Source: Takashimella koratensis (lineage: Eukaryota > Basidiomycota > Tremellomycetes > Trichosporonales > Tetragoniomycetaceae). Taken from it: a stretch of 64,000 bases of DNA. The notes below the pieces were generated by a model, which was not told where the DNA came from, did no database searches, and saw nothing but the letters and a program-made list of their open reading frames with translations. The position numbers and the translations under genes were made by a program. Positions 22,258 to 42,218 of the stretch are shown here, piece by piece (position 1 is the stretch's first letter; the number at the start of each line of letters is the position of its first letter). Where the stretch lies: positions 1,138,201 to 1,202,200 of the forward strand of contig BCKT01000004.1 in assembly GCA_003116875.1 (NCBI GenBank). Reading direction: 5' to 3'.

Positions 22258-22907
22258 CTAAACCTGTCAGCAGTGCACATCTTCGTTTCGCAACTCACAG
22301 TTTTGAAGGCGAGGATTGCCGTCTGCGCCCGCGCTTGGTCATCGTGGTTCGGGGGAGTCACCTTCTCAGCCAAAAGGTTGACTAGATTGTTGCAACTCTG
22401 CTCGTTTGTCAAAAAATTGGATGATGCCATGATCACAGGATAAACTTACAACTACGATAGTGTCAAATTGGCGAGACAGCAATCCGTATCTCACGTCTGC
22501 GGAAGTACCGGGAGAGGCTCCATCCACAATCTGCCCCGTCAGGCACTTTCATCACATGCTTGTTCAAGGTCGTGACTTACCTGGATGATGTTGAGCACAT
22601 TATTGAGAATCATTCTCCTGCCGTACTGCGTGTTGTCAGGTTGCCACTCGAGCCCGATACCTGCGACGACGTCCTCGAGTCTCTGCAGCCCCTGGAAAGA
22701 ATCAACGGCGTGTCGGCGAGTGCAATGACTCACTTGTTCGATCTGGGGCAAGTAAGCGTTCACTTTGGCCGCGTACAGCGGATCAGTCTGAAATGCGAGC
22801 GAATTGCAGAGGGCGATGTTCTTGGTCCTGACGCTGAGGATACGAGTATCGATCTGTCCCCTCTTCTCTTGGAGGTAGCGACCAACATCGGTGTGGGTGA
22901 TAAGCAT
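22258..22907 (-). CDS. Family-1 orphan protein, member D
   Basis: I do not recognise a known domain. Exons (coding order) are 22734-22907, 22581-22691, 22450-22530, 22299-22397 and 22258-22263; all introns are phase 0, and most are 42-52 nt. If the last short intron (22264-22298, 35 nt) is not removed, the frame runs to 22176 instead. The core exon is exactly 37 codons (GLQRLEDVVAGIGLEWQPDN ... ILNNVLNIIQ) and aligns with the core exons of members A, B and C. The protein is about 156 aa, helical, and without signal peptide or membrane helix. It starts at MLITHTDVGRYLQEKRGQ and lies in tandem with family-2 member F. The shared GCCATCATTT word is on its own strand about 135 nt upstream. Confidence 0.62.
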
Positions 22908-23020
22908 TGGACGTAAGGGTGTGGATGGTGTCTGAGAGGTGGTAGGAAGGTGGAAGAAAAGAGAGAGAAGGTGAGCGGGTGAGTGTACGACTTGACGTGA
23001 AACGTGAAGACTGGTCAGAG

Positions 23021-23056
23021 TGATGCCATCAGTGATGCCATAAAATGATGGCATCA
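23021..23056. repeat. TGATGCCATCA direct/inverted repeat cluster upstream of gene D
   Basis: TGATGCCATCA at 23021-23031 is followed by TGATGCCAT (23033-23041), which forms a 9-bp inverted repeat with ATGGCATCA (23048-23056). On the minus strand 23056-23043 reads TGATGCCATCATTT, identical to 41113-41126 upstream of gene B. Confidence 0.75.
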
Positions 23057-23141
23057 ATCAATGATGCTTGACCAAAGGACAGACTGTCTCGAAAATTTCT
23101 TCATGCATTTCGTTGGCCTTGTGTTTATGCACAACGCGCAC

Positions 23142-24088
23142 TCAGTTCGACTCGGTGACGGGCTCCTCACCAGTTGATATCGAGGTATCCGGAGCGGGGC
23201 GCGCTCCTTCGAGAGCTTTCTTCAACTCTTCGTCAATCGTGCGCAAATGCTATCGCCATTTATCAGCTGCTTCTTTTCCTGTTCCTCACGTTTAAGATCT
23301 GCCCCCACGATAAGTTTGCAGACATGTAGCAGTCCCCCATGTCCAGCCAGGAATTCATCATCATATACAGATGCTGCGATATGTTTAGCGTTGAGCGAGT
23401 GTAGACAGAGTGCTCACATCTCTACACTTGCTTGAGGCGTACTCCAGGATTACATATCGTCGGGAATCGTCGGGGTCCGCCACAACAATTAACTCCTCAA
23501 CGACACGTCAGCTCAGGCTCTCGTTGTGACAAAGTTGTCAACGCACCAGGAGTGATTTGTTAAAAAAAACTCGAGCGTCAACCCATGCTTCCTTTTCCCT
23601 ATCAAAGGGCTCGGAAATCCTGGGTCCGAAGTCTTCATCGGCTAGTTCAAGCAGGTGATAGAGCCTTTCGGTCTCCTGAGCTGGTCAGTGCTTGGTGACT
23701 TGGGCCTAGGTACTAACCTTTCTGATCTCGTCGAAGGCATCCATGGCGTTGGATAGCTGGAAATGCTTCTCGTACTTGTTCCTCATATGAAGGTACTCAA
23801 CTCGATGCGTGTAGAGCTAACGTGGAGGAGGCGGGCACGTTTAGTCGGCATTCGTCCGTTGACTCCCAACACCGCATCGGAAGAGACAAGAAACTGCTAG
23901 AAGGCTGATGAGGTACGCCAACTCACTTTTATGTGCTTCTCCGCATCCGCTTTCAGGTTATGCATTACTCCCATAAAGTCGTCTAGCTCGTGTTGGGACG
24001 ACTTGTATCGTGAAGTCTGGCTTCGAGGCTCCACCACCCTCAGCTGGACCGGAGCGGTAGGGATGAAGGACAGTGAGATCGAAGACAT
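23142..24088 (-). CDS. Family-2 orphan protein, member F
   Basis: Unrecognised protein in six phase-0 exons. From the start at 24088 (MSSISLSFIPTAPVQLRVV) exon 1 ends DAEKHIK. Exon 2 has 33 codons and ends with NAMDAFDEIRK. Exon 3 ends VFFNKSLL. Exon 4 has 26 codons with ELIVVADPDDSRRYVILEYA. Exon 5 begins HLYMMMNSWLDMGDCY. Exon 6 is HLRTIDEELKKALEGARP ... EEPVTESN, stop TGA 23142-23144. Exons 2, 4 and 6 match members G and H closely (exon 4: 16 of 26 residues shared with H). It is about 225 aa, charged, probably all-helical and soluble. It lies downstream of G and upstream of D on the same strand. Confidence 0.68.
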
Positions 24089-24705
24089 TGAAATGTGCTG
24101 GTTGAGATGTGAAAGAACAAAGAGACCAATGAACGAGATGTGACTTGGAAACCCAGCGCGTCCCGGCATGCAGAAAGGAATTTTGGAGACCGGGTTTTAA
24201 GGTTACTGTTTGCAGCAGCTAGATGCTCCACAACATGTGTGTCACGGGATACTTGTAAATCAAAAAGACTAAACGTTCGCAAGTGTCGCGTACATCTGAT
24301 GCTCATGTCGACGGACGCGATCGTCTCGGTGTTTTGGTGATTACGAGAGTAGCTCTACCTCTGCTCTTTCCGTCGCTGCCCCCCCCCCCCCCTCTCACAT
24401 CCCCTTCTCCTATCCCGCTACGTCAACTATGGTTTTCTTGCCCTTTTCCCTCTGCGTTTGCGGACTGATCAGCGATGGCGGTGATCAGGGTATGACTCGA
24501 TCAACAGGGAACTTTATCAACATCTTCATTCCTTCAACACCTCAGCATCCATTTCTTCAGACTTATGACGACCGAGTAAACAAGACGAGCGCCGTACGGG
24601 TCAAAAGGCTCGGATAGCTTGACCTGTCGCATCTCTTGATACTGCGCCCCGGATGTCTTGGTCTGGGTACACACTGGCGCCCGATCTCTCCCTCATTCAT
24701 GCGCA
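24089..24705. other. Intergenic region between family-2 genes F and G
   Basis: 617 bp: promoter of F and 3' flank of G. It contains a 14-base C run (24379-24392) and otherwise no gene that I can support. Confidence 0.4.
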
Positions 24706-25639
24706 TCATTTACTGTTGAGACCTCGGGAGATTCCTTGGTCGTCTCCGGTGACGGGGTCTTCCTGGGTCTTCACGTCGGCCTCTCCAGGAGAGTGCCGAG
24801 GTTCGACCGCTGCCTTCAGGGCAAAACCTACTTTGAAAAGGTGCTACCGCCAACGTCAGAAATCCGTTCAAGCCATCGCATCTTTCTGTCTCTCACCGTT
24901 GAGATCGCGTCCGCTGCTCCGCTGACAAGTCCCTGGTCATCGGTTCCCATCGCATAGCAACATTCGGTGATCTCCTGTAAATACTGCCGTTGCTTTTAAT
25001 ATTGAGCCAGTATGTACATCACACACCTCACGACACTGCTTTGAGGCGTAGGGTAAGATCTCGGATCGACGGGTGTCGTCAAGGTCGGCCACAACAGTTA
25101 ACTCCTTGTCTATTAGTCAGCTCTAATCAACTCGTGGTGAGAATTGACTTTGCACCTTGGTGAACATAATAAGGTAATGTCTTCCACGCATCCATCTAAA
25201 CAGAGGGCCGTCCTCGATCCTAGATCGAACGAAGAATTCTTCATCGATCGACTCAAATGCACGAAGAAGCGCATCGGTCTTCTGCTACTTGTCAGCTTTT
25301 ACGGTCAGGTTTTGGTTCAAAGCACTTGCCGTTTTGATGACGTCGAAGGAGTCCATAACTTTGGCAAGCTTGAAGTCCTTCTCGTTCCTGTTCAACAACT
25401 GAAGGTGTTCCACATGGAGAGCATAGACCTAGGAGCGCATGGTCAGTCGACTGCTTATCCATACGGCTAAAGGGAGAGGAAAGAACAGGTGGAAAAGGGC
25501 GAGGAGACCCACGCGACGTGTCTCGAGGTAGGGCACTCACTTTCCAGTTACGTTCCGCTCTCTCTTTCAAGTCCCTCATAAGGTCAGGAAACGATGGAGG
25601 CTCTTCGTCTGGACCATCTACCGTCAAAGTGCTGGGCAT
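24706..25639 (-). CDS. Family-2 orphan protein, member G
   Basis: Paralogue of F and H. Starts MPSTLTVDGPDEEPPSFPDL at 25639. Exon 2 has 33 codons (VYALHVEHLQLLNRNEKDFK ... SFDVIKT) and ends at a GC donor (GCAAGTGC) instead of GT. Exon 3 starts KTDALLRAFESIDEEFF. Exon 4 has 26 codons with ELTVVADLDDTRRSEILPYA. Exon 5 is YLQEITECCYAMGTDDQGL.... The last exon is HLFKVGFALKAAVEPRHSPG ... EDPVTGDD, ending at TGA 24706-24708. The conserved E(E/D)PVT motif near the C-terminus is shared with F. It is divergent from family-1 member A over 664 bp. Function unknown; no signal peptide or membrane segment. Confidence 0.65.
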
Positions 25640-26303
25640 GTCGTCTAGGGCTTGCTAGAGATGATTGGGATGAAAGAGAATACGAGACTGGGGCGCGTGA
25701 AGCACGTCGAACCTTGCGCTGGGTGGCTTAAGGTTAAGGTGCCTCATGCAGTACGTATGCGCTCCTCGAAGTGGCACGTTTGTGGTAGTGTGGCGATACC
25801 AAGTAGAGCATTGGTCACAGACCGGTGATAGCAACATGACTCTGTTCACCAACATGGGCACTGTCTAAGGGATTGGAGGTCTATGGTGGGTGGATTGATT
25901 GCGTCAAGTATACCGTTGATGCTCTTCGCCGCCATCACTCATCATCCACGACCGCCACGTGTCCGCCATCATTTGATCACTCCAGTCACCTCGTCTCACC
26001 TCTCACCGCGACCACCTTCCCCTCCTCCTTCCTCCTCCCTCACCTTCTGCTTTCCGTCTTTCCATTCTCTCTTCTCTCTTCTCTCCTCTCTCCATCTCTA
26101 GGCTCACTCTTTCCCTCCTCATGGACAACGGGCCTGACGCAGTGGGTGGCTGGACCCATCCTGGAGAGAAGATCATGAAACTCGCTCACCTGGTCGACAA
26201 TGGTCTTGATATAAGTGGCCAGACACGCGCTCCCCTCCGGTTCTTTTCCTATCTTTACCTACCTGCCCACATCGTCCATTCCCTCCAAAAAGGAAATTGA
26301 TAT
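25640..26303. other. Shared divergent promoter of orphan genes G (-) and A (+)
   Basis: 664 bp. It contains GCCATCATTT at 25965-25974 and, toward A, a long pyrimidine-rich tract (25980-26130, CTCC/TTC repeats) that is probably the A core promoter. No further gene is seen. Confidence 0.5.
25965..25974 (+). promoter_or_regulatory. Shared GCCATCATTT word upstream of family-1 gene A
   Basis: The 10-mer GCCATCATTT lies 330 nt upstream of the A start and in the same orientation as the gene. The same word occurs upstream of D (minus strand, 23052-23043) and B (41117-41126). Regulatory function is inferred only from recurrence. Confidence 0.4.
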
Positions 26304-26948
26304 ATGGGTTTGCCTCAGACTCTCAAAGCTCGTCAATGGGATGTTAGAGCCTCCCTGAGCTACCTCGGGTCTCCAAACTACCGAGAAGATGCCGAGACCT
26401 ACCTTGAAACTCTCGGACACGTAAGTCTATAGGCTCAATCAGACTTGCCTGACAACGTCAGTACCGTGAACGTCTCAGGATAGTCTTCCAAAGCGTTGGC
26501 CTAACATGGTACGACTACATGACCGACGAACGAATTGCTCTCCTCAGAATCCTCATCCGCATCCTCGAGGTACGTCTCTTTCTTACCTCTTCTGTGTCAA
26601 GCGACTGACATCGGTTTGCCATATCCTCAACAACTCGGGTACCAGCATCCTTGACCAGAGACTCACACTGAGCCGTCATTCGGCAGACCTTGTGATGAAG
26701 GTGAGTGTTCATGAGCTTGTATCCTGCGAACCAAGAGGCACTGACGATCGAAAAGTGCCTTGAAGACGTTGCCAAAGGTCTGCGCCCCGGCTACCAAGGA
26801 GTCCCTCTCAACCGTGATGGTACCCTCGCCGAACAGGCGGCAGCTAGAGACCTTGCTCTTGCGCTGAAGAACGTGAGGTTTTACGAATCAACACTGAGCT
26901 TGCTGACGGGTTATCCAGGACCTGCACACCGTTTTCAGAATCGTTTAG
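26304..26948 (+). CDS. Family-1 orphan protein, member A
   Basis: Five exons: 26304-26420, 26462-26569, 26602-26700, 26756-26872 and 26919-26948, all joined in phase 0, giving 156 aa. The first exon ends YLETLGH. The core exon (36 codons) is YRERLRIVFQSVGLTWYDYM ... LLRILIRILE, and exon 3 ends DQRLTLSRHSADLVMK, which lines up with DVRYGLLSRQFDTIVV in D at the same intron. Exon 4 has CLEDVAKGLRPGYQG and a C-terminal Ala/Leu helix. The intron 26570-26601 is only 32 nt; a longer alternative ending at 26655 is possible. No known domain. Its stop is 23 bp from the stop of the convergent sensor gene. Confidence 0.6.
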
Positions 26949-26971
26949 GTGATGCATACCAGTGATCGGAA

Positions 26972-29777
26972 TCAAATTGCTCTTCCCTCCGCGTCCCTCG
27001 GAACGGCCCCCCAATCACCTTGATCCTCGTACACAGGCGCGAAATCTCCCGCTCCTCCATTCCCACCGTGACCGCCATGGCTTGAGCTCTCCCGCGTCGC
27101 TGGCTGCTCCCATCGGACCGTCTTACTCGCCTTTGCCCGCTCCAACAGCGCCGCTGCGACCTCCTCAGTCACCGTGCTCCCCAAAGTCCCTGTCCCCATT
27201 CCCCCAACTTCGTCTCCATCTGGACCGGTAAGCGACGTCGTGGCGCTGATCCACCTGGACGACGTTGATCGTGGCCTCGACTCGCCTCCTTGGTGTTGTG
27301 AGTGTGTCAGCGAACGGGTCCGCGTCGAGGCAGATGAGCTTTCACCTGCGCCGCTGTAGTAGCCGTGGTCGTATTCGAACAAACTGGACGCGGCGTCAGT
27401 GCCTGTTCGTCCGGGCGATGAGAGCGTGATCCGTGGTGGTGGCGGGAAGAGGTTGGGGTCAGGCAGAGCGAGGTGTCCGTCGTTGGTGGCGTGAGAGTAG
27501 GGCGTGGGCATTGGCATTGGCTCGTGCGCGTACATCATGGCGATCTGGTCGTCTGCGATGGTGCTGCCTTGAGAATAGACGCTCGCGGTGGCGGCCATGG
27601 TTGCGCGACTGGGATTTACCACCACCAATGGGCCGGTGCCCGTGCCACTCCCGGCGGCATCTTGACGGAGGATTGGCCTAGGGTCACTGATATTTCTCCC
27701 TGCCAACGCTTCCGCAAACGTCATCCCTGATCCTCCAGTTGCGCCGTAATTTGCGTACGCTGACCGCGCGACGAGTGGCATCGGAGGGAGAGGTGGGATT
27801 TCCTCTTGCTCGTGTCCTCGAGCCGCCATGTCCTGCATCTGGTGGGTGGTGTAGTAGTGAGACTGGTCGGGGTTATTCTGGTTGTTGTAGTACGCGTCGG
27901 CCCATTGACCGGTTTTTCGTGCCGAGACCGAGTGGCGGAGGTTGGCGAGTGGCTGTGTGATGAAGTTTGGGAAGACGGAGAAGCGGGCGGAAGCGAGGGA
28001 GGGCGCAGAGAAGCGGGAGACCGGCTCGGCGCTTTGTCGTTGGTTCTTCTCCTCGCCTGGGATCTCAACGTCTCCGCCGTAGAACCAACTGCTCCGAAGC
28101 TGCCTAATTTTATTTCCCCTCTTTCGCTGCGCCCACCACCTCACAACGAGCAAAATCACCGCTATCCCCGCGATCATCGCGAGAATCCCACCAATCGCGG
28201 CACCTGCTGCAACTCCCGTATTATGTGTAGAGCTGCTACCGGTCGCGAGTGCGTTGCTGGCGGAGGAAGACGAAGAGGAGGCGGCTGTGACGGTGACGCC
28301 GTCTCCGGAGGAGACCATGTCTGCGACCGGTGTGGTGTTCTGCTGGACCTGGGAGAGAGTGGTGGGGATGTTGTCGACGGTGGTGCCGGTGGATGACGAG
28401 GTGAAGAGGGACGAGGGAGCACTAGAGGTCTGAGAGGTGACGGCGTTGAATTGAGCGGTACTGGTGCTGATTGAAGCACTGGATGAAACTGGGGTCGATC
28501 GACTATTGTCAATCGATGACGTCCGCCCATTTGTCGTCGAGGTCGTCTGTGAGGACGGCACTACCTGCTGTTGCTGCGTCGGTGTAGTAGAAGTGGTCGT
28601 ATTGGTGGGGCTCGTGACAGGCTGAGTCTGCTGCGTTTGTGTCGTTGTCTGAGTTACCGAATCGGTCGTTGGGCAAGGCTCATACAAGGTCGAGTACGCC
28701 TCATTTACCACGCTCGGCGTCGATGTTGTTACTACAAACGTCGAGAAAGACGTCGTCGGGTCCCCAGTGATGGTCGAGGTTGAGAAGATGGTGGTGAATG
28801 ACGCGCAGTTGGAGTCGTCGCTCGAGTCGTCGGGCGAGTTGAAGGCATTTCCAGCCGCGAATCGCCGGAAAAGACGATCAGAGTCGTGGCTGCTGCGACG
28901 GTGGTGGGTCATTGCCTGCGTCGTCGGGGAGGAGCCATGGGTTTTGGGAGTGGACAGTGAGGGAGAAGAGAGACTAGGGACATCCGAGGCGCCTAGTGAG
29001 TCTTTGGACGACGAGGTGGACCTGAAAGTAGGGGACGAAGTGGAGGAGGGAGTTTGAGAAGAGGGTTGATCACTGCCTGGTTGACTGGATGAAGTCTTGC
29101 TACTGTGGCTATCACTAGACCGCGTGTCACCTGGACGGGAAGAGGCACTGCTGGACGGGGCTATGGAAGAGATAACGGTAGCAGCGGCGACAGGGCTGGG
29201 GCGCACATGGCTAGCGGATGAAGTAGAGCTGGAGACGGACGAGTGGTCGGATCGAATCGTAGACCCTGTGCTGGAGGTGGAAGACGAGGCGGGATTGACA
29301 AGGAGGGCGTGGGCATTGACCTCGCTCGAGGAGGAGCTGGAGGTCCCACGCGAAATAGATGAGGACGAGGCGATGGGAGTCGAGGTCGGAACGCTGCTAG
29401 AGCTCTGACTACTACTGCCACTAAAAGAACTCGAAATCGGAGTGCGGATACTTGATACCTGCTGCCCTCTCCCGCGCCTCGCCGTTTGCTGGACCGTGGA
29501 TGACGACGACGTTGTCGTGCTTGAGCTTGTGGGCTCGCTTGCAAGAGCGTTGTTGCCCCCAGGGTTGTTGAAGCTCACACATGAAGAGGTGGTAAGGACG
29601 GATTCAGATGTGGGGGTCACAATGACTGCGGAAGAGGTGGTGAAGGTAGTGACAATCCATGATCTGAATGGAGAGGTGAGCGCTGTTCCGTGATATAACG
29701 TGATAAAAGAAGAGGAGTACTCGCACTCACGTCGAGGTGGAGAACAGAGTCGCGGTTGGGGTCGGTGTGCACGCCAT
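26972..29777 (-). CDS. Ser/Thr-rich single-pass cell-surface protein (Mid2/WSC-sensor-like)
   Basis: The likely start at 29777 gives MACTPTPTATLFSTSTS, spliced into one very large exon. Residues up to about 590 form a mucin-like Ser/Thr-rich ectodomain with few cysteines and a basic patch (RRSSHDSDRLFRR). One membrane helix follows (GAAIGGILAMIAGIAVILLV), then the basic stop-transfer RWWAQRKRGNK. A cytoplasmic tail of about 330 residues contains Tyr/Pro motifs and a final TVRWEQPATRESSS-like segment. No cleaved signal peptide or WSC cysteine domain is seen, so the match to stress sensors rests on architecture only. It is transcribed toward gene A, and its 5' flank is more than 1.4 kb long. 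Confidence 0.7.
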
Positions 29778-31199
29778 CTTGACCTCACGGTCGCGATCGA
29801 CCAAGACTGTTCAAGAGCGCGATATCGACGGCGTATACCCGTGCTGTGATACCCAAAGCGGCAACAGAGATCAAGTGAACGATGGACGATGAAGTTGTTG
29901 ACAAGACAAGAGGTTGTCACCTAATCCAACACCCACTTGCCGCTTTCCACCAAGAACGACGGTGTATGAGGGAAATTATGTCGCGAGGGAGAGGCGAGAT
30001 GGGCGAGATCGAGAACAAAGGTGTTGACAGCAGGACACTGAAGGATGCGAGAGGGAGCGGAAGGACACGGGAGGAGACAAAAGGATATATACGAAGGAAG
30101 CTGAGGGAAGCCAAGTGTGCTTCAACTCGGACGACGCAGTGGACCCATGCACCGCGTCGCAAAGGTGACAAGGCAGGAGGGGGGAGGTCCTTGGTGATTG
30201 TCGCTTGGAGTCGTCTCGGGCCAGCAGCGATCGAGGAGGAGCAAAAGAGCGAGGGGGTCGGGTTGAAGGAGGTCGGGGTCTCGGGCAGAAGGAGGAGGGC
30301 GGTGCGGACCAGCAAGGAGGGCGACGTCGATTCCAGTCGAGTCGGGGCGGCTTTATGCAAGAGCGTGGGATAGGGGTCAATTGGGTTGAGATTTTGGGGT
30401 GGGGCCGGGGTAAAAGGGAGCAAGGGAGCGGGATGGTGAAAGGAGCAAGTTGGCACGGGGGAGCGCGAGTAATGAGGGTAGAGCAAGAGGGGGGACAGCG
30501 GCGTCGAGCCAGTCGTGAAAGGATCGTCCGCTGGACGCGGGGGATGAGCGAACGGGGTTAAGGAGGGTCAATGGGACCAGCCAGATCGACCAATGCAACG
30601 TGCAACGTGCGCTGGGGTAGAGGTGAACGGGAGGAGAGTAGGGGAGGAGCGGAGGGCGGAATAGGAGAGGAAGGATCGACGAGGAGTGCGTGTATGTTAG
30701 AGATGGGATGAAGAAACAGCAGGTCGAAAGTATATGAGCTGATATAGTACGCTGAACGGATACAGTTAGTGGTTCGACATGAGTGTAGGCAAGGTGAACA
30801 ATGGATCGAAGCCAGGTAGTGAAGTAGCGAGATGGGGAGCTAAGATGAGATGAGATGCACTGTCGTCGACACGGGTAGCATAGGACGACGTGATTGCAGT
30901 TGTCATGCTACCTCGGCAACGGTTTCCGGCACGGGCCGGCGGAGTTGAGGGTCGCGTGCTGTTTCTTGCTATCTAGTGAATGGAAAGAAGCTCAAGAGTC
31001 AGTGCGAATCAACCGAAGGAAGCTGAAGAGAGACCGGGGGTCAGTGCGAAGTGCACCCAGTTTCGATGGAGGGGGTCCGAGCGTCAAGGAGGTAAAGATG
31101 AGCGGCTGTGGCATTCTGAAACGCCTTAGTCGGCGGGGAGGCGAAGTCGACACGGAGACCCGATATTCGTCGTTTGCTGATTGGAATCACCAGTCAGCC
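29778..31199. other. Long 5' flank of the sensor-like gene
   Basis: About 1.4 kb with no gene that I can support. On the minus strand the first 700 nt are CT-rich with several open but low-complexity, Pro/Ser/Leu-coding frames (for example 29917-30486), best read as leader or promoter sequence. TATA-like ATATATAC occurs near 30085 and 30730. Confidence 0.4.
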
Positions 31200-31580
31200 C
31201 CCAGCGAAAGGAGGGTATGGTTTTAAGATCTCTCCATCTGCCCCCTTTGAACTCCACTCATAGCCTCGCCGAATGGATGTACATCTTGCTCGTACTGGGC
31301 ATCCCGTTCCGCTTCGACGGCTAAGGCACGCCACATTGCCTGTGAAAGAAGCCACAGCTGTAGATCTTGAGCACCGGACATGTCGAATAACCTTAAACAT
31401 GGCGAACGCGTCGCGATGGTGAGCTTGTATCACCTCTTCACCTCTCATCTATTACCCGACGTTCGGCAAAGTCTTACAAATGAGCTCAAGTCAGTCTTCA
31501 AACTTGTTGATGCTGGAACTGGAAGTCGTAGCAGGAGCCACGTTGAGCTGGTTACGAGAAGAGACGTTGAGACAATTTGA
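31200..31580 (+). pseudogene. Probable decayed family-1 gene remnant
   Basis: The frame in 31380-31580 reads KHGERVAM, then a donor-like GTGAGC, then after TCGGCAAAG the segment LTNELKSVFKLVDAGTGSRS ... TRRDVETI. Its nucleotides resemble the fifth exon of member C (TGAGCTC...GTCAG...ACTT). It is followed at 31.7 kb by a copy of the transporter 3' end, the same order as C-transporter at 34 kb, which supports the plus-strand reading. The minus strand also shows an exon-like frame (31242-31358), so orientation and extent are uncertain. No intact start or full exon set exists. Confidence 0.3.
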
Positions 31581-31694: not shown

Positions 31695-31830
31695 AGATGA
31701 GATGATGGTTGGTGTAACTTTCTCTACTCACTTCCTTTTCGATGAGAATGCAACCCAGTCCGCAGAGTGCCAAGGCGTGGCCGAACACCTGGCGTGATCG
31801 TGCTCTCGAACTACGCGACGCTCGAGGAGC
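31695..31830 (-). pseudogene. Partial, degenerate copy of the 3' end of the transporter gene at 34.3 kb
   Basis: The minus-strand frame QVFGHALALCGLGCILIEKE mirrors QVFGYVLALCGLVAYRNVSS at the C-terminus of the transporter ending at 34325. At the DNA level 31747-31830 and 34352-34440 are clearly alike, with a 5-nt deletion that shifts the frame. Similarity continues past the transporter stop into its 3' flank (31695-31745 with about 34289-34351). So this is a genomic duplication and not a retrocopy of a spliced mRNA. Confidence 0.7.
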
Positions 31831-32060: not shown

Positions 32061-32969
32061 ATGTCGCTGCATGCACCTTACACTCTCCACGACGCCATGA
32101 TGAAGTGGATGCAAGAAGAGTCAGGGAGAATCGTCCAGGTGCGTTGCATTCATGATCACCTTCCTATGGCTCGTCTTGTCTCCACTTGGAACCTGTTCCA
32201 CACTGCGAACCCCTTTGGCCTCGCCATATCTCCATGATTTGGGAATGATGTAGCTTCGAGTCACTCAACTTACACTTTCGACTAGGTATTCGAACAGAAA
32301 GTCCAGCGCATTCATAAACTGAATGATGAGCGCCTGAAAATGATACCATTCACTTTGGATGAGTTAAACCTCGTGAGTCTTTTGATCTTCTATCCGGAGC
32401 CAACAGTTAACAGGCGATGCATGATCTGGTTCGAGGGATGAGCGCGATCACGGAAATGGGCTTTGACAGATACCCAGAGGGGATCATGGAATGGTACCTG
32501 AACGTGGTTTGGGGGTGGCAGTCGATTTTCGAGTTGTTGTCGGTGAGTGAAGGAGCTGAAGTTGCTGAACTTGCTGAACTTGTCTTTTGACTGACCTCAC
32601 TCGACGTTTTGCCCACGTTTAGGATATCAATATGATGGAATTCGGTGGTGAGGAATTCATCAGGATTCATCACCACAAGGAGAGGTCCATTGTACCGGAC
32701 CACCTTGTAGCTATCCACAAGAGATGGCGTAAAGTGAGTGACTTTTCAACGCAGCGGGTGTTGATTTCATTGCAGGCCTTCGAGACTATTCAACACTTAC
32801 TCGATCATACTGTTCGTCCCTTCATTCATGGTAACATGGCGTTCAACACATTGTATGCACTTCTCATGATTGGCTTTGTGAGTGGCTGGTGATATCGATC
32901 CCAATCGTCGACTGACCTACACCTTAGAGGGCTGAGGATCTATCTCGGGAGTGTGGGTATGCGACGTAG
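32061..32969 (+). CDS. Family-1 orphan protein, member E
   Basis: Six phase-0 exons of about 26, 29, 43, 37, 34 and 13 codons. Exon 1 is MSLHAPYTLHDAMMKWMQEE.... Exon 2 ends FTLDELNL. Exon 3, the core exon, is AMHDLVRGMSAITEMGFDRY .... Exon 4 ends LVAIHKRWRK. Exon 5 has a hydrophobic patch AFNTLYALLMIGF, and the short last exon is RAEDLSRECGYAT with stop at 32967-32969. Order and phase of exons match B and C, but residue identity is low, so this is the weakest-supported member. There is no signal peptide; the hydrophobic patch is too short and interrupted for a confident membrane helix. Confidence 0.58.
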
Positions 32970-33220
32970 TTTACAACGGCGTCGAGCTCGAGTGGAGCGT
33001 CAGCCAAACGGGGCCGTCCGCCGCTTGCTATTGCGTATCCGGGGCAGAAAATGTACATGAGATGAACGTGTTGGGTTGAGGAGACCGCCTACGGGAAGCG
33101 CCATTGTTCGCTTGCACATGTTACATCTCGTCGAACAACTGACTAAAGAGGCTAAGGTTGCCCGGTCTCTACGCTGATTCACTGTGCCGTCATGGTCACT
33201 GACCCCTGACCCCTTCCCAT

Positions 33221-33258
33221 CAATCCATCATTCCATCATTCCATCATTCCATCACTCT
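33221..33258 (+). repeat. ATTCCATC tandem repeat upstream of gene C
   Basis: Four near-perfect 8-bp units (CCATCATT) lie about 235 nt upstream of the C start. The unit shares CCATCATT with the word found upstream of genes A, B and D, and could be an expanded version of it or a chance microsatellite. Confidence 0.7.
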
Positions 33259-33489
33259 GACCCCTGAGTCAACCATGGGTACCCCGCACCACGCACCACG
33301 CACCTTCCTTCCCTCCCAACTGCCCACTGCTCTCCCCTCGGTGCGACGCGACACGTCACCCGCCGTCACCCCACCTTCTCTCCTTGTCTCCTTCTCTTTC
33401 TATTCTCTCTATTCACCTCTACTCTTCTCTCACCTTTCTCACCTCTCTCACCTCTTTCGCCCTCTTCATCTCTCCGCACTCAAACAAGC

Positions 33490-34151
33490 ATGTCCTCTTT
33501 CCCCAAATCATACATGGGGAACACCGCTGAGGCATTTGACCGCTGGATCTCAGTGCGTGAGAAAGCTGACATGACTCCTCACTCGGTGAATCAAGCTGAT
33601 CACGCTGTCGCAGGCCTTCTATGCGGATATACAGAGCGTGGACACGCAGTCTGACGAGCCTCACACTTTCCACGGCGAGCGGGTCTTCAAGTCTCTATAT
33701 AAGGTGAGGCTCAGAGCGCCCAGAGCCCAATTTTCAGACTAACCTTTCAGCAGACACATGACAACCTTCGCGTCATCTTTGACGCCTTTAACTTCGAGGC
33801 CGATCCAGGAACGACGTACGTGAGGAGGGAGGCTTTCGCTATAGTGTTCTTCAAGATTGGCATGGTGAGCGAGATCTTCTTAGTTGTACATGGACCTGCA
33901 CTCTGATACCCCTCATTTTGCAGGCACTGCACTCAGTCGTCCCCGCGAAGATCCGAGGGCAACGATTCGACATCGATAGGTCGATGTTCCAGCGCCTCAT
34001 CGACGTAAGGCCTTTACTTCTACGTGAAATGAATACGGCTGACGGCTGACAGGGCTGCGCTGAGCTCCGTCAGGAGGCCGACTTCATCTGTGATTAAGCT
34101 GACCCAGACAAGAGAGAGATTGTCAGGGATGCGATCGCGGGCCTCGACGAG
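33490..34151 (+). pseudogene. Family-1 orphan gene, member C, with in-frame stop in exon 5
   Basis: Exons read MSSFPKSYMGNTAEAFDRWI(S), AFYADIQSVDTQSDEPHTFH ... SLYK, a 37-codon core exon THDNLRVIFDAFNFEADPGT ... FFKIGM, ALHSVVPAKIRGQRFDIDRS ..., then GCAELRQEADFICD followed by TAA (34095-34097). After the stop the same frame stays open to a good donor at 34152 (DPDKREIVRDAIAGLDE|GTAAGC). In A, B and D the corresponding exon continues with the same kind of helix. So the stop truncates an otherwise normal exon; the copy is either a recent pseudogene or makes a shortened protein of about 129 aa. No convincing last exon is visible after 34152. Confidence 0.6.
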
Positions 34152-34324
34152 GTAAGCTACTGCGAGGTGTCACCGAACGTTGCTGACATGGTCGAAGGCG
34201 GCCATACTCATCGGATCCTGGGTCAGAAATTGAGATTATATATTTTAAAGATCGACTGGTTTGCATGGCTGGAGGAGGTTACCGCGCGAAATCGAAATGA
34301 TGATTGTGGTATAGTTTTCTCTAT

Positions 34325-36331
34325 TTACTTCTTCTTCGACGAGACGTTTCGGTATGCAACTAGTCCGCAGAGCGCCAAGACGTAACCGAACACCTGGATC
34401 GGCGTGATTGTGCTCCCGAACAACGCGACGCTCGAGGAGATGAGGAGGATGTCCTGTGCCGGATTAGCTAACTTGTCGATGCGTGGCATCTTCCACGAGT
34501 ACTTACCTTGAAAACGCCAGCAAGGGTCAAGGTGAGACCGCCCGCGGCACCAATGAGGAAGACACCCGCAACGTTGAGCGCGAACGCGCATGCGGCGTTG
34601 GTGATGAGGATGAAGGGTCCGATGCGGGCGAGGGCGAGGAAAGGAGCCCAGCCCTCGGTGAATGGGATGAAGCAGGCATTGATGATTGAGCAGACCTGGG
34701 GTGGTTAGAGGAGGTTCTGGGAAAGCATCATCAGTCGACTCACGGGAGCGTAGTAATGCAGAGACGAGAGTGGGTCCATCTTAAAAGTCAGCAGAGTCGG
34801 ATTTGGAGGCCTACCTTGAGACCCTTCAGTAAAAGCTCGATCATGACCAGGCGCCTGGGAAAGAGTCAGTTGGGGTTCGAGCAAGCTTATTCTTGCTACG
34901 CACGATGATTCAAACTGAATAAGGGGTCAGCTGTTAGAACGGTCATGCAGAGAGCCGTAGGAAGATGAGACTCACCAAGACGGCGCTGGTCTGACAAAGG
35001 AAACCAAACATCTCGAAATGAAGCTCGCCATAGGCAGCTGTACAAGTCAGTTATTGAACGTTCACCCACGGCGACCGACTCACCCAATGCGCATCCACTC
35101 GAGATGAGCTGTGAACTTGTCAACCTCGTGTTCAATTGTCCGACCTGGAATAACTCACCATAACGATTCCTGCCAATTGTGGGCTGAATTTTTGAAGCCC
35201 AAACAAGCTCGAAGTGATAATGATAGCGACAGGTGTGAATGCCTTCTGAAACCGTTAGCCATGCCATGCCAGCGTGGGTGGATAAAGGGGACGGTGGTGG
35301 GGTGAGGAGGGAGGGAAGGGCCGCACCTTGAGCATTTGGATGAAGGACACGCTCAGTCTGGGGGTTGTAGCGTATCAGCTTTGTCTCTTATGTCTGGTAG
35401 GATGGCAGGAAACCACTGCAGCGCTCACGTCAGGTAGGCGGTGTTGCTGAGGATCAGCGAGCCGGAGAAGAGCACGCCTATGGGAAGGATCGACTTGACG
35501 TAGATCTCTCGCTACGAGGGTCAGCGGGTTCCAGATTCAATCCATGGGGTCAAGACTCACTGTCATGGGGATGGCGTCGAGACCGTCCATGAGGTTGGTC
35601 GTTGCTCGGAGCACGCGTGTGCCGAGCGCCTGCAGAGGTCAGCGGTGAGCACGTGAAGAGAGATCAGCGGTGACGTACTGCGCATCCGAGGTGGTAAGAG
35701 GTACTGTGGTTGGTTAGTGAGTAAGTTTGGCAGACCGTAACCCTTGGCAAGGCTTACACAAAGATGGGCTGCAGAAATTTGTCAGCTCGTGCTCGTCAGG
35801 GGTTGAATAGCTTGCGACTTACGTAGGGGAAGTCGAGGTTGGTGTAGAGGTATTCTGTTGACGTTGGTTGGTGACCTAGTTCCTTTAGATTGTCAAGCCT
35901 AACTCACTGTTGTAAATGATGACCGCAGAGGAGATTGCAATCCAGATGGGGACTGTAGGGTATCAGCACCTATACTCCCTCCCCGCTCAAACTATGGAAG
36001 ACGCTTCTTCGATCCGAGACGATTACTCACTGATCGTCGCTGCTTTCATCGTTGTTGCCTTTCTAGCCGCGCGTGATGGTTCTGCAATCCCTTTGGCATC
36101 CCCCAACGCGAGTTCCGCTGTCGTCGAGGTCTCGGAAGCGAGGATGCTCAACCCATCTGGCGCCCCGATTCCCCCTGGTGAGTCGCTGCCTCCCAATGAT
36201 CGGTCACGCTTGTGTGTACGCGAAGAGTTGGCGGCAGAGGATGAGGAGGAGGCGGAGAGGGGTACAGGGGATGGGGACGGGTGGTGGATGTTGTCCGTGG
36301 AGTGGGACGGGAGGAGGGGTGGGGCCGGCAT
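34325..36331 (-). CDS. Triose-phosphate/nucleotide-sugar transporter family (SLC35/TPT) membrane protein
   Basis: This is a drug/metabolite-superfamily transporter, with about ten helices, in the Golgi or ER membrane; substrate not assignable. A Ser/Pro-rich cytosolic N-terminus begins MPAPPLLPSHSTDNIHH. The first helix is VPIWIAISSAVIIYN, then EYLYTNLDFPY, LGTRVLRATTNLMDG, ILPIGVLFSGSLILSN and the family hallmark FIQMLKAFTPVAI. ESSRLVMIELLLKGLKMDPL follows (the LxLxGLKMDPL region typical of TPT/Sly41-type proteins). The C-terminus is DILLISSSVALFGSTITPIQ, then QVFGYVLALCGLVAYRN and a KKxx-like end (SSKKK). The C-terminal di-lysine suggests ER/Golgi retrieval. About eleven exons. It is divergent from the FTR1-type gene with about 650 bp between. 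Confidence 0.88.
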
Positions 36332-36980
36332 GGCGCCGGAGGTGGGGAAGGAGAGGAGGGGAGGGGAAGGAGGAGCTGAGGGAGGATGTGGTGGGATGCG
36401 AGGGTGAGAGGGTGTTGGTGAGAGGTGGATGTGGTCGTGGGGGTGGGCGAGTTGTTGGATGGGAGGTGAGGTGGAGGATGGCGGTGGTAGTGGTGGGTCG
36501 GGGTGCTGTGTGGCAGACGGTGGGAACTATGCAGGGGATCCTACTCAACGCGTCCTCCCTGGGTCGAGGAGTTCTCATTTGCTCCCGCTATTAAGCTTAC
36601 CCCCTGCTAGCGGCCTAAGAAAACGTGTCTTTCCGGGGCAGGCCACCGTGGGAACCTACACCTGGGGAAACCCCCGCTTCCACGTGACATCCCGAGACTC
36701 GGAATCTACCGGATCAGGCGCAGGTTACCATTGACCTGGTCGGGCCCGAAAATCATCTCCAGCTCTATCAGATAGACTGCGGCCTTTCTACTTTTTGCTC
36801 ATCCCCTTCACACCCTCTCTCTCCCTTCACTCCATCTTGTACTCCAATCTCCACTCACTCCTCCCTCTACCCCTCTCTCATCTCCCTGTGCACACCGTAC
36901 AGCGCTCGCCCGTGCTGGCCTGTGATATATCCTCCACTTACTTCGATTCGCCCCCTCGCCTGGTCGCCAAGTCTTCCAAC
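36332..36980. other. Shared divergent promoter: SLC35-type transporter / iron permease
   Basis: 649 bp between two starts. The transporter half is purine-rich on the plus strand. The permease half ends in a CT-rich leader (36790-36920). It contains the GATA dyad annotated separately. No gene is seen. Confidence 0.45.
36769..36777 (+). promoter_or_regulatory. Iron-GATA-factor-type site ATCAGATAG upstream of the iron permease
   Basis: ATCAGATAG matches eight of nine positions of the ATCWGATAA element bound by fungal iron-regulatory GATA factors (SreA/Urbs1/Cir1 class) and forms a TATCAGATA dyad. It lies 204 nt before the permease ATG. Binding here is inferred from the gene's function and the motif. 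Confidence 0.5.
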
Positions 36981-38853
36981 ATGGCCGGCTTGGCCGTCGT
37001 TTCGGTGAGTAACTGCGATCGAAATCCTCAATGGCTTCCTTCTCAAAAGATCATACTGACCAAGACTCCCACTTCCTATTCCTATTCCCCTATTGCTCTC
37101 AATCGGAACTCAGCCCGTTGCGTTCTTCATCACGCTCCGAGAGACGCTCGAGGCCGGTATCATCAGTGAGTTGATCCACAATGTTGAGGAAAAGTCTCGA
37201 TCAATTGTCCTAGTCCTCCAACTGACTCCATTCCCATCTCCGCAGTCGTCGTTCTCCTCGGATTCATCAAGCAGATCGTACCCCCTTCTTCCCCGATCGA
37301 GCTCAATGGCCGCCTCTCTGGCTCTCGAGAAGAGCTCGTCCATTCTCACCCTTCCTCGACTTCTGCGGCCCCAGCGTACCAGACCTTCCGGGACGAAGAT
37401 GACGATATCGCCACTCGCGATGACCAGGCTAACGGTGACGGCGAGCGGATAGAAGGCGCCCCCGTCGTCGTTCCCGCGCTCGGGGAGGACGAGGATGAAG
37501 ACAGTCCCGAAGAAGAGCAAGAGGTGTTGGAGACTGCGCATATGGGCAAGGGGGAGAGAGACAGTTTGGTCAGGCGAATGAAGGTGCAGATTTGGACAGG
37601 AGCGATTTCGGGGCTGGCAATCGCAATGGTCATTGGAGCTTCTTTCCTCGTGATCGTGAGTTGATCTTTGATTTGAACAGACAAGCGGTCAATCCAGCCG
37701 ACTGGACCTCGAGAAGGACGCTGATCGGATCTGTCTAGTTGTTTACTTTCGCACGCGATATCTGGGTTGAAGCGGAGAACTTGTGGGAAGGGACGTTCTG
37801 CGGTATCGCATCGATCTTGTACGTTGTGTCCTAACAATACTCGGCAGCTGCGCGAGACAACCTTTAGCTGACAGTCTTCAGGATTATGATCATGGGGCTG
37901 GCGTTCCTTCGCCTTCCTTATGCGCAGACCAAGTGGCGTCTCAAACTGTTATCCGCCTATCGCTCATCAGCCAACGACGACTCCCTTGACACCTCTCACC
38001 CTCACGCCCACCGTCGCCAATCCCATTCCCACCGATTCCGCCTTTTCCGCTCTCAACAGACCCGATCTCGGTTCATCCTCTTCGGTCTACCATTCATCAC
38101 TGTCCTCCGTGAGGGCCTTGAAGGCGTCGTTTTCCTTGGCGGTATCAGTCTCTCCCAAACCCCTTCTTCCGTCTTCCTCGGTGCCGCACTCGGTCTCGTC
38201 GTCGGTGCATTGGCAGCCTACGCCCTGTTCTCAAGTACCTCCCCGCTCTCGATGAAGAGGTTCACGACAATCTCCACCCTCCTCCTCTTCCTAATTGGTG
38301 CGGGTCTGGCCTCGAGGTCAGCCTACTCACTAGAGAGGCAGTATTTTATCAATGGCGTAGGCACCGCAGCAGCGGAGAGTGGGAATGGACCAGGGAGTTA
38401 TAGAGTTAAAGGCAACTTGTGGAAGTTGACTTGGGGTGATCCGGAGATTGGAAACGAAGGGACAACGGGATGGTACCAGCTCGCCAACAGTTTGGTGGGG
38501 TGGAACAATGTCGGAACGTACTGGACCGTGTAAGTGGTGTTCTACATCTATCTCGGGTCAGAATTCGTGGGTCTGGATTATGGCTAACAAATCCTTCGCC
38601 TCTTGCTCTTGCTCTTGCTCTTGCTCTTTTCTTCCCGGGACACAGATCCATCTACAACGCATACTGGCTGATCATTATCGCCACCCTCGTGCGCATGAAA
38701 TACGCCGAGGGTCGAACCAAGATCCTGGGTCGACACTCTCGGCGCGGACGGGAGCGGGAGAAAGCGCGGCGCCGAGCGGCGGGTGATGATGGGGACAACG
38801 TGGGTACAGAGGAGGAGGCGGGGTTGTTGGGTCAAGAGAGGGAAGAGGAGTAA
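36981..38853 (+). CDS. FTR1: High-affinity iron permease, FTR1/FTH1 family
   Basis: Ftr1 proteins import Fe(III) produced by a partner multicopper ferroxidase. Both iron-binding motifs are present: the N-terminal RETLE (VAFFITLRETLEAGIIIVV) and the canonical REGLE (ITVLREGLEGVVFLGG). Several membrane helices and the conserved ARDIWVEAENLWEG and SAYSLERQYFINGVGT regions follow. The cytosolic loop between helices 1 and 2 is long and acidic (LGEDEDEDSPEEEQEVLE). Six or so exons; the first ends MAGLAVVS and the intron inside ATCATC|ATC is phase 1. The C-terminus is basic then acidic (RRGREREKARRR ... EREEE). No ferroxidase gene lies next to it, so plasma-membrane (FTR1) and vacuolar (FTH1) roles remain open. 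Confidence 0.9.
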
Positions 38854-39829
38854 CTGTGTAGCACGATCCGTGGAATGGGATCAGGCGAGACCGGGGCGGA
38901 TGTAGGATTTGGCGTGACACAAAAGTGGAGGAAAGATCTGCTTAGACGAATAAACCTACATCATATCTTTGTCTCCTATTCACCCCACTTGTGTGTCATA
39001 CACGAGACGAGAAAATGTCGAATCTTCCGAGGTAGGATCAAAGATCTCCTCTCCTCCCCTCACCCTTCATGTCTACCATCTGCCTTTATGATGACATAGA
39101 ATAATGTATCGAAGACCATGTCTTTTTCTGAATCTATCGTATAGCGAGCACAAGCACCGTCTTTGGTAAACGCGAGTGATGTGAAAAAGGGGGAGGGAGG
39201 GGGTGCATGGATGGGAGGGGAGAGGGGAAAGAGGGGAAAGAGGCGACTGGGGAAGTGAGAGAGCAGCTCGCAAAATGGCGGAGCACTATCTACTTGTGTA
39301 ATGGGCAATGAAATGCAGATGTCGCTACGACTACAAGGTGCTACTACGGGTAAGAGTACGGTTCCAAGGTAATTACTAGGGATCCGTCTATCGTGATCCC
39401 TAGAGGCTTATATGCCTTGAGGAGTCGTCTATAAATGACAGGAGAGTGCGACGTTCTTGTAACCAGATAATCTTGCTACGGTCCTCTACCTCAATCCCTT
39501 CTGCCTGTCACCTTGTTTCTTAGTAGCGCTACCCATAAAGGCTCTCATGTACTCCGTAGGACGGTTTCCGTGTCATCCACTCGATTCGAGCAACTTCTTC
39601 TCGACATCTTTCAGTATCAACTCCACTCCTTTGCCCTCTGATGAGCTGCCGCCACATCGGAACCACGGCTGTTCATGACTTCGCATTGCCTAAACCTTAA
39701 CGCTTACAGACCGACGCGTGCGTGTCGTGACCTTGGGTTTAAGAGTTTACTTCTGCTCCGTTTTTTCTTCTCTTCCTCTTCCCTTCACTCTCCAAGAAGA
39801 GCCATAGCAGCACACATCCTCGACAGTCG
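38854..39829. other. Intergenic region downstream of the iron permease and upstream of family-2 gene H
   Basis: 976 bp without a supportable gene. It holds a perfect 9-bp inverted repeat (annotated), a G-rich block at 39187-39245 and a CT-rich leader (39760-39800) just before H. Confidence 0.45.
39376..39403. repeat. Perfect inverted repeat CTAGGGATC-N10-GATCCCTAG
   Basis: Nine-base arms (39376-39384 and 39395-39403) are separated by ten bases. The element could form a hairpin in RNA or be a dimeric protein site. It is about 520 nt past the permease stop and 430 nt before gene H. Confidence 0.75.
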
Positions 39830-40926
39830 ATGACCATGGACTGTTCAACCCAGATTCAGGACGAATACGAGGGATATGTCAAGAGCTTGACCACGGACGA
39901 GTTAAAGGAGCTTCACGAGGAGATTCAGGAATATGGTGAGGCCCTGTGTGCAGGTATCGTCCAATGGCAGCAGGAAGCGGAGGAGAACTTCAAGGTGAGT
40001 ACGGCTATACAACTCGCTGGTTCGACGCGGTTGCCGTTCTTTCTAATACTATCACTGCGCTTGAGGAGATATAAGGCCGAAAGCTGAGCACATTCTAGAC
40101 CTACGTCAACCGCGTGGAGTCCCTCCGTGTCAGGAGTCAGAGGGATGAGCACTTTGCCCTATCCAAGGCCATGGATGCCTTTGACGGCATCAAAGTGGTA
40201 CGTCCTACGAGACGGGGACTTGAAGCTGACTTTTGCTCAACAGGAGACCGATACAATCCTTCGAGGGCTCAAGAATATCGATGATGACATCTTCCGTACC
40301 TTGGAGAATCCTCCTGAGGGCTTTCAGCTTAGTAATGACATGATCGAGTGCTGGGAAGGAAGGAGACGCACTTTCAGTCTGCTCACCAAGGTCTGTCGAC
40401 GATATCACTTGTCGTATGTTGAGCTGACGTAAGGGTTAAGGAGTTGACGGTCGTGGCGGACCCGGATGATTCCCGACGAGCCGAGTTATTGAACTACGCC
40501 ACTGCCAGATGCTTCGAGGTGAGTAGAGCAGACTGCCCAATGTCTCTGGTACTTAGATAATCTTAGCATCTTAATGTGATCCCTTACTACCTACTTCAAC
40601 TTGGCGGCGACAAACGGGATCTCACCTCTCGCATGGACAAGGCGGGGCGACAAATTAAGGCGGTGAGAGACCAAAAATAACGAAAAGCAGTCGGCTGAAC
40701 TCCCAATCAGCATCTCGAGGAAGTCACCGAAAAGTTGAAGGATGCTCTCCCCGGGTACGACACTCTGCATATGAGCGAGCAGCGGCCCAACTATTCACCG
40801 CCTTTCTTTGACAGGATGATCAAAGATAATATGCTTGCGGAACGTGTCGACACACAGGTCCCAACGCATGAGTACGTCTTTGTCCATCGGAGGGTCCTGG
40901 AAGAAGATACAAACGATGTGGAGTGA
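39830..40926 (+). CDS. Family-2 orphan protein, member H
   Basis: This is the clearest member. Exon 1 (about 55 codons) begins MTMDCSTQIQDEYEGYVKSL and ends QEAEENFK. Exon 2 has 33 codons (TYVNRVESLRVRSQRDEHFA ... AMDAFDGIKV). Exon 3 ends TFSLLTK. Exon 4 has 26 codons (ELTVVADPDDSRRAELLNYA ...). Exon 5 is HLNVIPYYLLQLGGDKRDL .... Exon 6 begins HLEEVTEKLKDALPGYDTLH and extends about 50 residues beyond F and G. All introns are phase 0. The ATGs at 39830 and 39836 are both possible starts. The protein is about 260 aa, charged and helical. It lies in tandem just upstream of family-1 member B. No known domain recognised. Confidence 0.7.
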
Positions 40927-41112
40927 AATAGGGAGAGGCAAAAGAGAGGACAGAGTGTGGGTGGGATCACCTGAATGGAGCTGCAACTTTGTGACGAAAG
41001 AGATGAGCAGGGGCGGGAGGAAAAATGAAAAAGAAAGGGGATGCAAAATTATCAACGGCTACCTGACTTTGATGGTGGTGCCACTTATCGGTCATCATCC
41101 CTCACCCATTAC

Positions 41113-41126
41113 TGATGCCATCATTT
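41113..41126 (+). promoter_or_regulatory. TGATGCCATCATTT word upstream of family-1 gene B
   Basis: This 14-mer is identical to the minus-strand sequence 23056-23043 upstream of gene D and contains GCCATCATTT, also found upstream of gene A. It is 320 nt before the B start, in the gene's orientation, just before the (GT)n tract. Confidence 0.45.
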
Positions 41127-41135
41127 CATCATTCA

Positions 41136-41140
<5 letters not shown>

Positions 41141-41198
<58 letters not shown>

Positions 41199-41253
41199 NN
41201 NNNNNNNNNNNNNNNNNNNNNNNNNNNNNNNNNNNNNNNNNNNNNNNNNNNNN

Positions 41254-41317
<64 letters not shown>
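41141..41317. repeat. (GT)n microsatellite containing an assembly gap (N 41199-41253)
   Basis: Pure GT dinucleotides run on both sides of 55 unknown bases. The gap most likely reflects an unresolved length of the same repeat, so its true size is unknown. It lies between genes H and B, inside the B upstream region. Confidence 0.95.
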
Positions 41318-41321
<4 letters not shown>

Positions 41322-41445
41322 AGAGTCCACTTGTGGATCTACACGTCACCCGTTATTCACCTCATCCTTCCCACTCTCGACTCATCCATCCACCCATCCA
41401 TCCATTCACCCATCCCCACCCTCATTCACGTCAACACCTTCCAGT

Positions 41446-42218
41446 ATGCCCGAATTCTCAAGGCCCTATTGGCCTCACATCATCCCGGTTCCGTACCTTC
41501 ACAGGAAGAGACTTGACCTTGCGTTTGAGGTGAGTCCTGATTGTGCAACACCTTCCTTTCATCTTCTGTTTGCCACCCCAGACATGCTCTCTCATCCACT
41601 CACTCCAACCAGAACCTTCAGACAAGGATGAACCGAGAACGATCGACCAAGCGGTACCTTTCCTCCGCTGCTCACCGAGCGGTCGTGGACGAGTACCTGT
41701 CCCGAGTGGCAACCGTGAGTGTCTGGAGTGAGCCTCAACTTGATTAACTTGACAAGCACGTCGCCCGGCTTCGCACAATCTCCGACGCCGTTCGTTGGGA
41801 TCAACTGCCCCTGAGGACCCTCACACAGCGACAAGAAGTCTATGTGTATACATTCTATATCATCAACGTATGTAGAGCTTCCTTCCACCGAGCGTAAGCA
41901 ACTGACTCAAGGGACCAGATGATCGCCAAGAGCACCATCGTCGCCAACGGGTACAAGTGGCCCATTGAACGTCACAATGTGGTGTGGATTACATTAGTGA
42001 GTGTCTCACATACACAGTGCACAGCGAAAAAGCTAATCAATGACAGGAGTACGACCACCTAATCAAGCAGCTCGACGACAAGTCGATTCCGGACCCTCAG
42101 CTCCTCCAGACTGCCATCGACGCCAGCGTGAGATTGTGGGATGTAAGTTTAGACGCTGTTCAAATCACTGACTCGATTACAGGAATGCAAGAACCTTTTT
42201 GAATTGGCTTCGTCCTAG
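41446..42218 (+). CDS. Family-1 orphan protein, member B
   Basis: Six phase-0 exons: 41446-41529 (MPEFSRPYWPHIIPVPYLHR ... LAFE), 41613-41714 (34 codons, ending YLSRVAT), 41757-41867 (37-codon core exon HVARLRTISDAVRWDQLPLR ... YTFYIIN), 41919-41996 (26 codons), then EYDHLIKQLDDKSIPDPQLL ... RLWD, and a last exon ECKNLFELASS with stop 42216-42218. About 168 aa. Core-exon length is identical to C and D, and intron order is identical to C and E. It is soluble and helical, with no recognised domain. It is convergent with AP-2 mu (stop 42386). Confidence 0.65.

Follow-up and report, generated by a model that had tools for sequence, protein, structure and literature searches.

A tandem array of predicted fast-diverging genes sharing a phase-0 exon plan in the basidiomycete Takashimella koratensis

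Introduction

In the rapidly diverging bicycle genes of aphids, which are candidates for gall effectors, the sizes of exons and their single phase persist longer than the protein sequence does, and members of the family are found by a classifier that uses gene structure only; the genes have about 17 exons on average, with internal exons nearly all in phase 2, and signal sequences are mentioned for one cluster (Stern and Han 2022, PMC9168663). Here we describe a tandem array of at least twelve predicted genes in and just left of a 64,000-nucleotide window of the basidiomycete Takashimella koratensis, the window being the whole stretch analyzed (assembly GCA_003116875.1, contig BCKT01000004.1, abbreviated C4, C4:1138201-1202200; genome of 25.1 Mb in 24 contigs). 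Compared to the bicycle genes, the array genes are alike in forming a probable fast-diverging family whose exon sizes and single phase outlast sequence, whereas they differ in having 4 to 6 exons in phase 0, in being fungal and known from one array, and in showing no signal peptide in a simple hydropathy scan. Membership in the bicycle family is contradicted by the placed introns, which are all phase 0 and not phase 2; the bicycle family is the nearest precedent for method and pattern.

A second comparison is offered by Neurospora, where lineage-specific gene clusters with HET-domain genes lie mostly beside telomeres, and where a role in genetic barriers and recognition has been postulated (PMC10684091). 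The likeness is that in both cases lineage-specific genes of a fungus lie together in the genome; our array, for its part, is found between 1.13 and 1.18 Mb on a contig of 1.96 Mb. Many fungal genes count as orphans because searches by sequence have no result. If families at 16-28% identity can be recovered from exon plan and phase, gene structure offers a way to go back over the orphan sets of basidiomycetes; the array is also one place in which to follow duplication, decay, and fast change, and its family would extend the known bicycle-type pattern to fungi.

An Array of Genes Built from Phase-0 Exons

The array covers about 47 kb (C4:1133427 to 1180418), with ordinary genes in between, and its members in order are I, J, K, L, D, G, H, A, E, C, F, and B. 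Gene L crosses the left edge of the window and I, J, and K lie just left of it. An initial annotation of the window had taken D, A, E, C, and B for a family of five; these five genes are where it placed them and have usable splice signals, but the family has at least twelve members, with F, G, and H added inside the window and L, I, J, and K at or beyond its edge. The plan of the family is six exons separated by five phase-0 introns. The five genes do have the architecture first proposed in common; D and A have five exons and not six, and exon 1 of D may be a fusion of exons 1 and 2. The core exon of 37/36/43/37/37 codons (D/A/E/C/B) was reproduced, in A by way of a 32-nt second intron with a poor branch site, which makes that exon edge uncertain. 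We consider it likely that all twelve genes are one tandemly duplicated, lineage-restricted family.

Genes were predicted with a purpose-written gene finder that uses codon, donor, acceptor, and branch scores, has no phase preference, and was trained first on the window and then also on 200 kb more of the same genome; splice candidates were read gene by gene, after which the models were fixed. The finder produced all-phase-0 models de novo for seven of the twelve genes (I, J, K, E, C, F, and B), several of them with exon edges unlike the final ones. D and A emerged with mixed phases, H as a fragment, and G and L were missed; the models of D, A, H, G, and L were placed by hand. Three adjacent genes with five phase-0 introns each, I, J, and K, came out of the finder de novo in the 10 kb immediately to the left of the window, and these were the sole all-phase-0 genes among 41 predicted with at least four introns in that scan (the start and fourth exon of J were corrected by comparison with I). 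No further all-phase-0 gene with at least three introns was found in 40 kb to the right and the first 35 kb to the left, a search that members resembling D, G, H, A, or L would escape.

All 56 introns placed in the twelve genes are phase 0, comprising 18 in I, J, K, and L and 38 in the eight genes wholly inside the window, so that the phase noted at the outset for five genes holds throughout. Among predicted non-family genes of the same genome, 135 of 336 introns are phase 0, and no gene with at least four introns is phase 0 throughout (0 of 39). Only 15 of 280 internal exons elsewhere are both phase 0-0 and 24-50 codons long, and no run of four internal exons, out of 145, has both properties throughout.

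We searched for the plan with a scanner that looks for an ATG, six exons in broad length ranges, five phase-0 introns, and ordinary splice scores on both strands, applied to 314 kb of the 25.1 Mb. The strict five-intron scan returned six places, all of them array members (K, J, I, B, E, and G), and returned no place in these 314 kb when set to phase 1 or phase 2 or given reversed DNA. With four phase-0 introns the scan found D, C, B, E, A, and G; its controls gave one place for phase 2 (over C), none for phase 1, and one for reversed DNA. Under relaxed five-intron settings there were 202 phase-0 places, among which array genes on the right strand took ranks 1-3, 6-9, 14, and 19, and the controls gave 185 places (phase 1) and 178 places (phase 2), with top scores of 98 and 87 compared to 139 for phase 0.

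Intron Positions and Sequence Similarity within and between Groups

MAFFT alignments are blind to introns, and we used them to count exon junctions that coincide by column, compared to shuffles. The genes A, B, C, D, I, J, and K (the first group) have 73 exact junction coincidences, where the shuffled mean is 1.5 and the maximum 5 (60 shuffles; I-J pair left out); in that alignment D and A each had one junction that was assumed but does not exist, and these two coincided with the junctions of no other gene. Counting real introns only, in an alignment of all twelve members, the same genes have 52 coincidences (shuffled maximum 5 in 100 shuffles; I-J included). Between F, G, and H and the first group there are 30 coincidences (shuffled maximum 7 in 100 shuffles), and under the automatic setting three of the five junction columns are common to the two groups, which was reached by none of 100 controls that permuted F, G, and H together. 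Gene E, under two MAFFT settings, has 6 coincidences with F, G, and H and 9 with the first group (shuffled maxima 2 and 4).

Identity among A, B, C, and D is 16-28%, and the exon-block z-scores of their six pairs range from 2.6 to 7.0. The initial description of the proteins as sharing almost no residue identity was therefore overstated, since A and D are 27% identical over 139 residues (expectation value 7e-8) and A and B 28% over 47 residues (7e-4), both with composition correction off. F, G, and H match one another pairwise with 36-38% identity and expectation values of about 1e-29. When exons were compared by number, leaving out the I-J pair and exons over 60 codons, the same-numbered exon was the most alike in all four rows of the first group (exons 2 to 5), with diagonal mean z-scores of 1.17, 1.29, 1.32, and 1.82 and off-diagonal values of at most 0.86. 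The diagonal is also highest for exons 2, 3, and 4, but not exon 5, when F, G, and H are compared to the first group; for E it is highest for exons 2 and 3 only in comparison to F, G, and H, and for exon 5 only in comparison to the first group. We also considered that the exons might be copies of one repeated hairpin exon, an idea left unsupported by the low scores of unlike-numbered exons.

Based on the exon-block z-scores, the same-numbered-exon test, and the profile alignments made with hhalign (below), common descent of A, B, C, D, I, J, and K is well supported and homology within F, G, and H is firm. The case that these two groups are one family is good, F, G, and H joining mainly by their intron positions, and the case for E is weak. 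Common descent followed by fast divergence, as initially proposed, thus agrees with the intron-blind alignment, the same-numbered-exon test, and the strict scanner, and is weakest for E.

Several observations weigh against a single family. Pairwise z-scores of F, G, and H with A, B, C, and D are only -1.2 to 2.7 (exon-block z-scores of E, F, G, and H with A, B, C, and D, -1.3 to 2.7), and hhalign detects no link between the two groups (probability 0.7%, expectation value 0.076, 24 columns out of register; at most 0.4% in 40 permuted controls) or between E and either group (at most 0.4%). Under the global MAFFT setting F, G, and H have one common junction column and not three, although even this was reached by none of 60 permuted controls, or by 2 of 60 if columns within four positions count. 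The position of E depends on the alignment, the global setting giving 3 coincidences with F, G, and H and none with the first group. The four-intron phase-0 scan also matches three places outside the array, relaxed settings put outside places at ranks 4 and 5, and the recall of the scanner is not independent because its length ranges were set after the family had been seen. Just two of five structure models of F exceed 60 in the predicted local distance difference test (pLDDT). Finally, some exon edges were chosen by hand once the plan was known, and we hence place more weight on the de novo models and the scanner.

These observations raise the alternative that the array holds two or three independent families (the first group; F, G, and H; and possibly E) whose plans are alike by chance or through an intron-gain bias in small helical genes. 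Independent families would explain why hhalign finds no link between the groups, why the z-scores of E and of F, G, and H with A, B, C, and D are low, and why exon 5 of F, G, and H does not pair best with exon 5 of the other group. However, a general intron bias is not seen, given that no other gene with at least four introns is phase 0 throughout and that the strict scan is empty outside the array; the junction columns also coincide across the groups, and the genes interleave within one stretch of the contig. We regard independent origins as unlikely. A single family would descend from an ancestral gene of six exons and five phase-0 introns, whose copies would have diverged in sequence until scarcely recognizable but would have kept the order, the phase, and roughly the lengths of their exons, with members arising by duplication and dying (C, and probably I and L).

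Protein searches of the same genome with nine members as queries (G, E, F, D, A, B, J, K, and I, thus all but C, H, and L) returned array genes only, plus one match with an expectation value of 1.66. In these searches D missed A and A missed D, so they cannot exclude distant members elsewhere. A profile search of 5.8 billion proteins, in which a word filter limits what a negative shows, gave no match at an expectation value of 1 for F, G, and H (3965 candidates) and none at 10 for J, I, C, B, D, A, and K (7996 candidates sharing most words scored). In the same database a control, the AP-2 mu gene that neighbors the array, had tremellomycete matches, with Kwoniella, Cutaneotrichosporon, Cryptococcus, and Apiotrichum at 81-85% among the best listed, which supports the fungal class of the window. 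A description of the family was not found among the literature matches listed, which were open-licence papers. The word VVADxDD of F, G, and H was followed to three places outside the array and these were rejected, being inside predicted genes with mixed phases and in one case on the opposite strand; the pattern read backwards occurs at one place.

Signs of Coding Constraint, Duplication, and Decay

In all 11 gene pairs computed, differences are more frequent at third codon positions than at first and second ones, and nonsynonymous divergence (dN) is below synonymous divergence (dS) in all eight of these pairs with a finite dS (for example, 0.65 and 2.0 for F-H, 0.59 and 1.37 for I-J), suggesting that the genes are translated and constrained. 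Because protein alignment itself favors a third-position excess in the most distant pairs, it is the comparisons among F, G, and H and those of I-J and A-D that carry weight.

Three members depart from the plan. In gene C, exon 5 is interrupted by an in-frame TAA (34095-34097), while the plan continues to 34233, which indicates that C is truncated or decaying; the initial annotation had located the gene correctly but had ended it at 34151. Exon 3 of I has 20 codons compared to 37 in J. Gene L consists of four exons of 28/31/34/13 codons followed by a stop, with three phase-0 introns, one of which has a GC donor, and looks truncated. Taken by themselves, the stop in C, the short exon in I, and the early end of L would suit a set of decaying or non-coding genes in which the plan survives as a relic and has no function today. 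Yet frames are open through five or six exons in nine of the twelve genes (all but C, I, and L), third codon positions are the ones that vary most, and I, J, and K have gene-finder scores of 44-58, like other short genes, so we give a relic very little credence. Instead, the array appears to be under birth-and-death evolution.

Two stretches of the array, 31701-31829 and 34299-34439, are 77% identical over 143 columns, the first being a copy, upstream of E, of the 3' end of a transporter-like gene (34325-36331, minus strand); this repeat is a remnant of segmental duplication inside the array. A search of 22000-42500 for repeats of at least 40 nt yielded one inverted pair (70%) but no direct family, and blastn gave two gapped repeats in the same interval that this search had missed. 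The best conserved stretch of the array is exon 4 of G and F (23457-23515 and 40420-40479), with 82% DNA identity over 60 columns.

Predicted Proteins and Possible Function

None of the twelve proteins has a Pfam match near the cut-off, in keeping with the first impression that they contain no known domain. The comparison of predicted structures covers F and, at low confidence, B. The best of five F models, built from three sequences, has a mean pLDDT of 70 (range of the five, 44 to 70) and a predicted template modeling score of 0.66, with block means of 69-96 over residues 31-210. It displays long helices at residues 20-68, 75-107, 117-140, 148-172, and 178-205, and the exon junctions, which fall after residues 53, 86, 135, 161, and 193, are distributed one per long helix, in order. 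The B model is poor (mean pLDDT 54) and has five helices; four of its junctions lie inside helices (1, 2, 3, and 5), and the other precedes helix 4 by two residues. Neither this model nor its fold neighbors are used as proof of a common fold. Comparison of the models to other folds yielded generic helical bundles only.

The F model resembles THATCH and talin R13 in being a five-helix bundle of similar size. The genes could encode a known helical-bundle family that has diverged past sequence recognition, such as the THATCH/talin actin-binding bundles or the HeLo/MLKL-like death domains; we consider such a descent highly improbable. The THATCH domain, also called I-LWEQ, is not among the Pfam matches listed at an expectation value of 1 for the twelve proteins.

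A simple hydropathy scan of 11 proteins (all but L), with no dedicated predictor run, gave no clear signal peptide or membrane segment, the strongest N-terminal stretch being that of G (1.46 over 11 residues from residue 4). Each of these 11 proteins has 1 to 4 cysteines. The products are probably soluble, all-helical as far as modeled, and probably intracellular. Proteins of the main bicycle family carry an N-terminal signal peptide. Secreted or host-directed effectors, like the bicycle proteins of aphids, would be in line with the combination of fast divergence and a kept exon structure, which is the bicycle-gene pattern (PMC9168663); with no N-terminus of signal-peptide strength standing out in the hydropathy scan and so few cysteines, we find it quite improbable that the array encodes such effectors, although unconventional secretion is conceivable.

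Tentatively, the proteins may be binding scaffolds in conflict, whether in self/non-self recognition or in defence against viruses or mobile elements. The idea comes from a pattern, namely soluble, helical, fast-changing, lineage-restricted proteins encoded in a tandem birth-and-death array; the bundle would serve as a protein-binding scaffold, and its surface would change fast through contact with a changing partner. It is conceivable, if doubtful, that the array is a fungal counterpart of the bicycle genes, in the sense of an intracellular arms-race family in which gene structure, with one phase-0 intron cutting each helix of a five-helix bundle, keeps the homology that is lost to sequence and profile searches; such a family would probably have further members elsewhere, both in this genome and in those of relatives.

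Gene Models and Surroundings of the Array

The models of the genes that lie in or reach into the window are given in Table 1. For D, the locus first annotated at 22258-22907 stands, but its end is read here at 22234; for C, the start of the earlier interval, 33490, is retained.

Table 1. Array genes in the window, with exon lengths in codons (positions are those of the window)
Gene	Position	Strand	Model
L (right part)	1..293 (C4:1138024-1138493)	+	start 177 nt left of window base 1; read by hand
D	22234..22907	-	five exons, 58/37/27/33/7, phase 0; strict four-intron scan match
G	23142..24088	-	six exons, 54/33/43/26/28/35, phase 0; strict five-intron scan match
H	24706..25639	-	six exons, 33/33/42/26/29/45, phase 0, one GC-AG intron; homologous to F and G
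A	26304..26948	+	five exons, 39/36/33/39/9, phase 0; strict four-intron scan match
E	32061..32969	+	six exons, 26/29/43/37/34/13, phase 0; weakest member; strict five-intron scan match
C	33490..34233	+	six-exon plan, 21/30/37/27/33/11, phase 0; TAA in exon 5 (counted among the 33)
F	39836..40926	+	six exons, 53/33/49/26/32/71, phase 0; modeled as five-helix bundle
B	41446..42218	+	six exons, 28/34/37/26/32/11, phase 0; strict five-intron scan match

Scans of the window for Rfam families and for tRNAs gave no match. Upstream of the genes, the 11-mer TGATGCCATCA occurs at 23021 and 23046 (in both orientations, upstream of D) and at 41113 (upstream of B), and nowhere else in 144 kb. The 8-mer CACCTTCC, on either strand, lies within 500 bases before nine of the twelve array genes and occurs 39 times in the same 144 kb, a count made without a significance test and not used as evidence. 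Just upstream of B, a run of 55 N at 41199-41253, inside a long TG repeat, is an assembly gap. On the minus strand inside the array, 26844-29777 encodes a long protein that is rich in Ser and Thr and has a single apparent transmembrane segment; judged by eye, it resembles a cell-surface sensor or a mucin-like protein.

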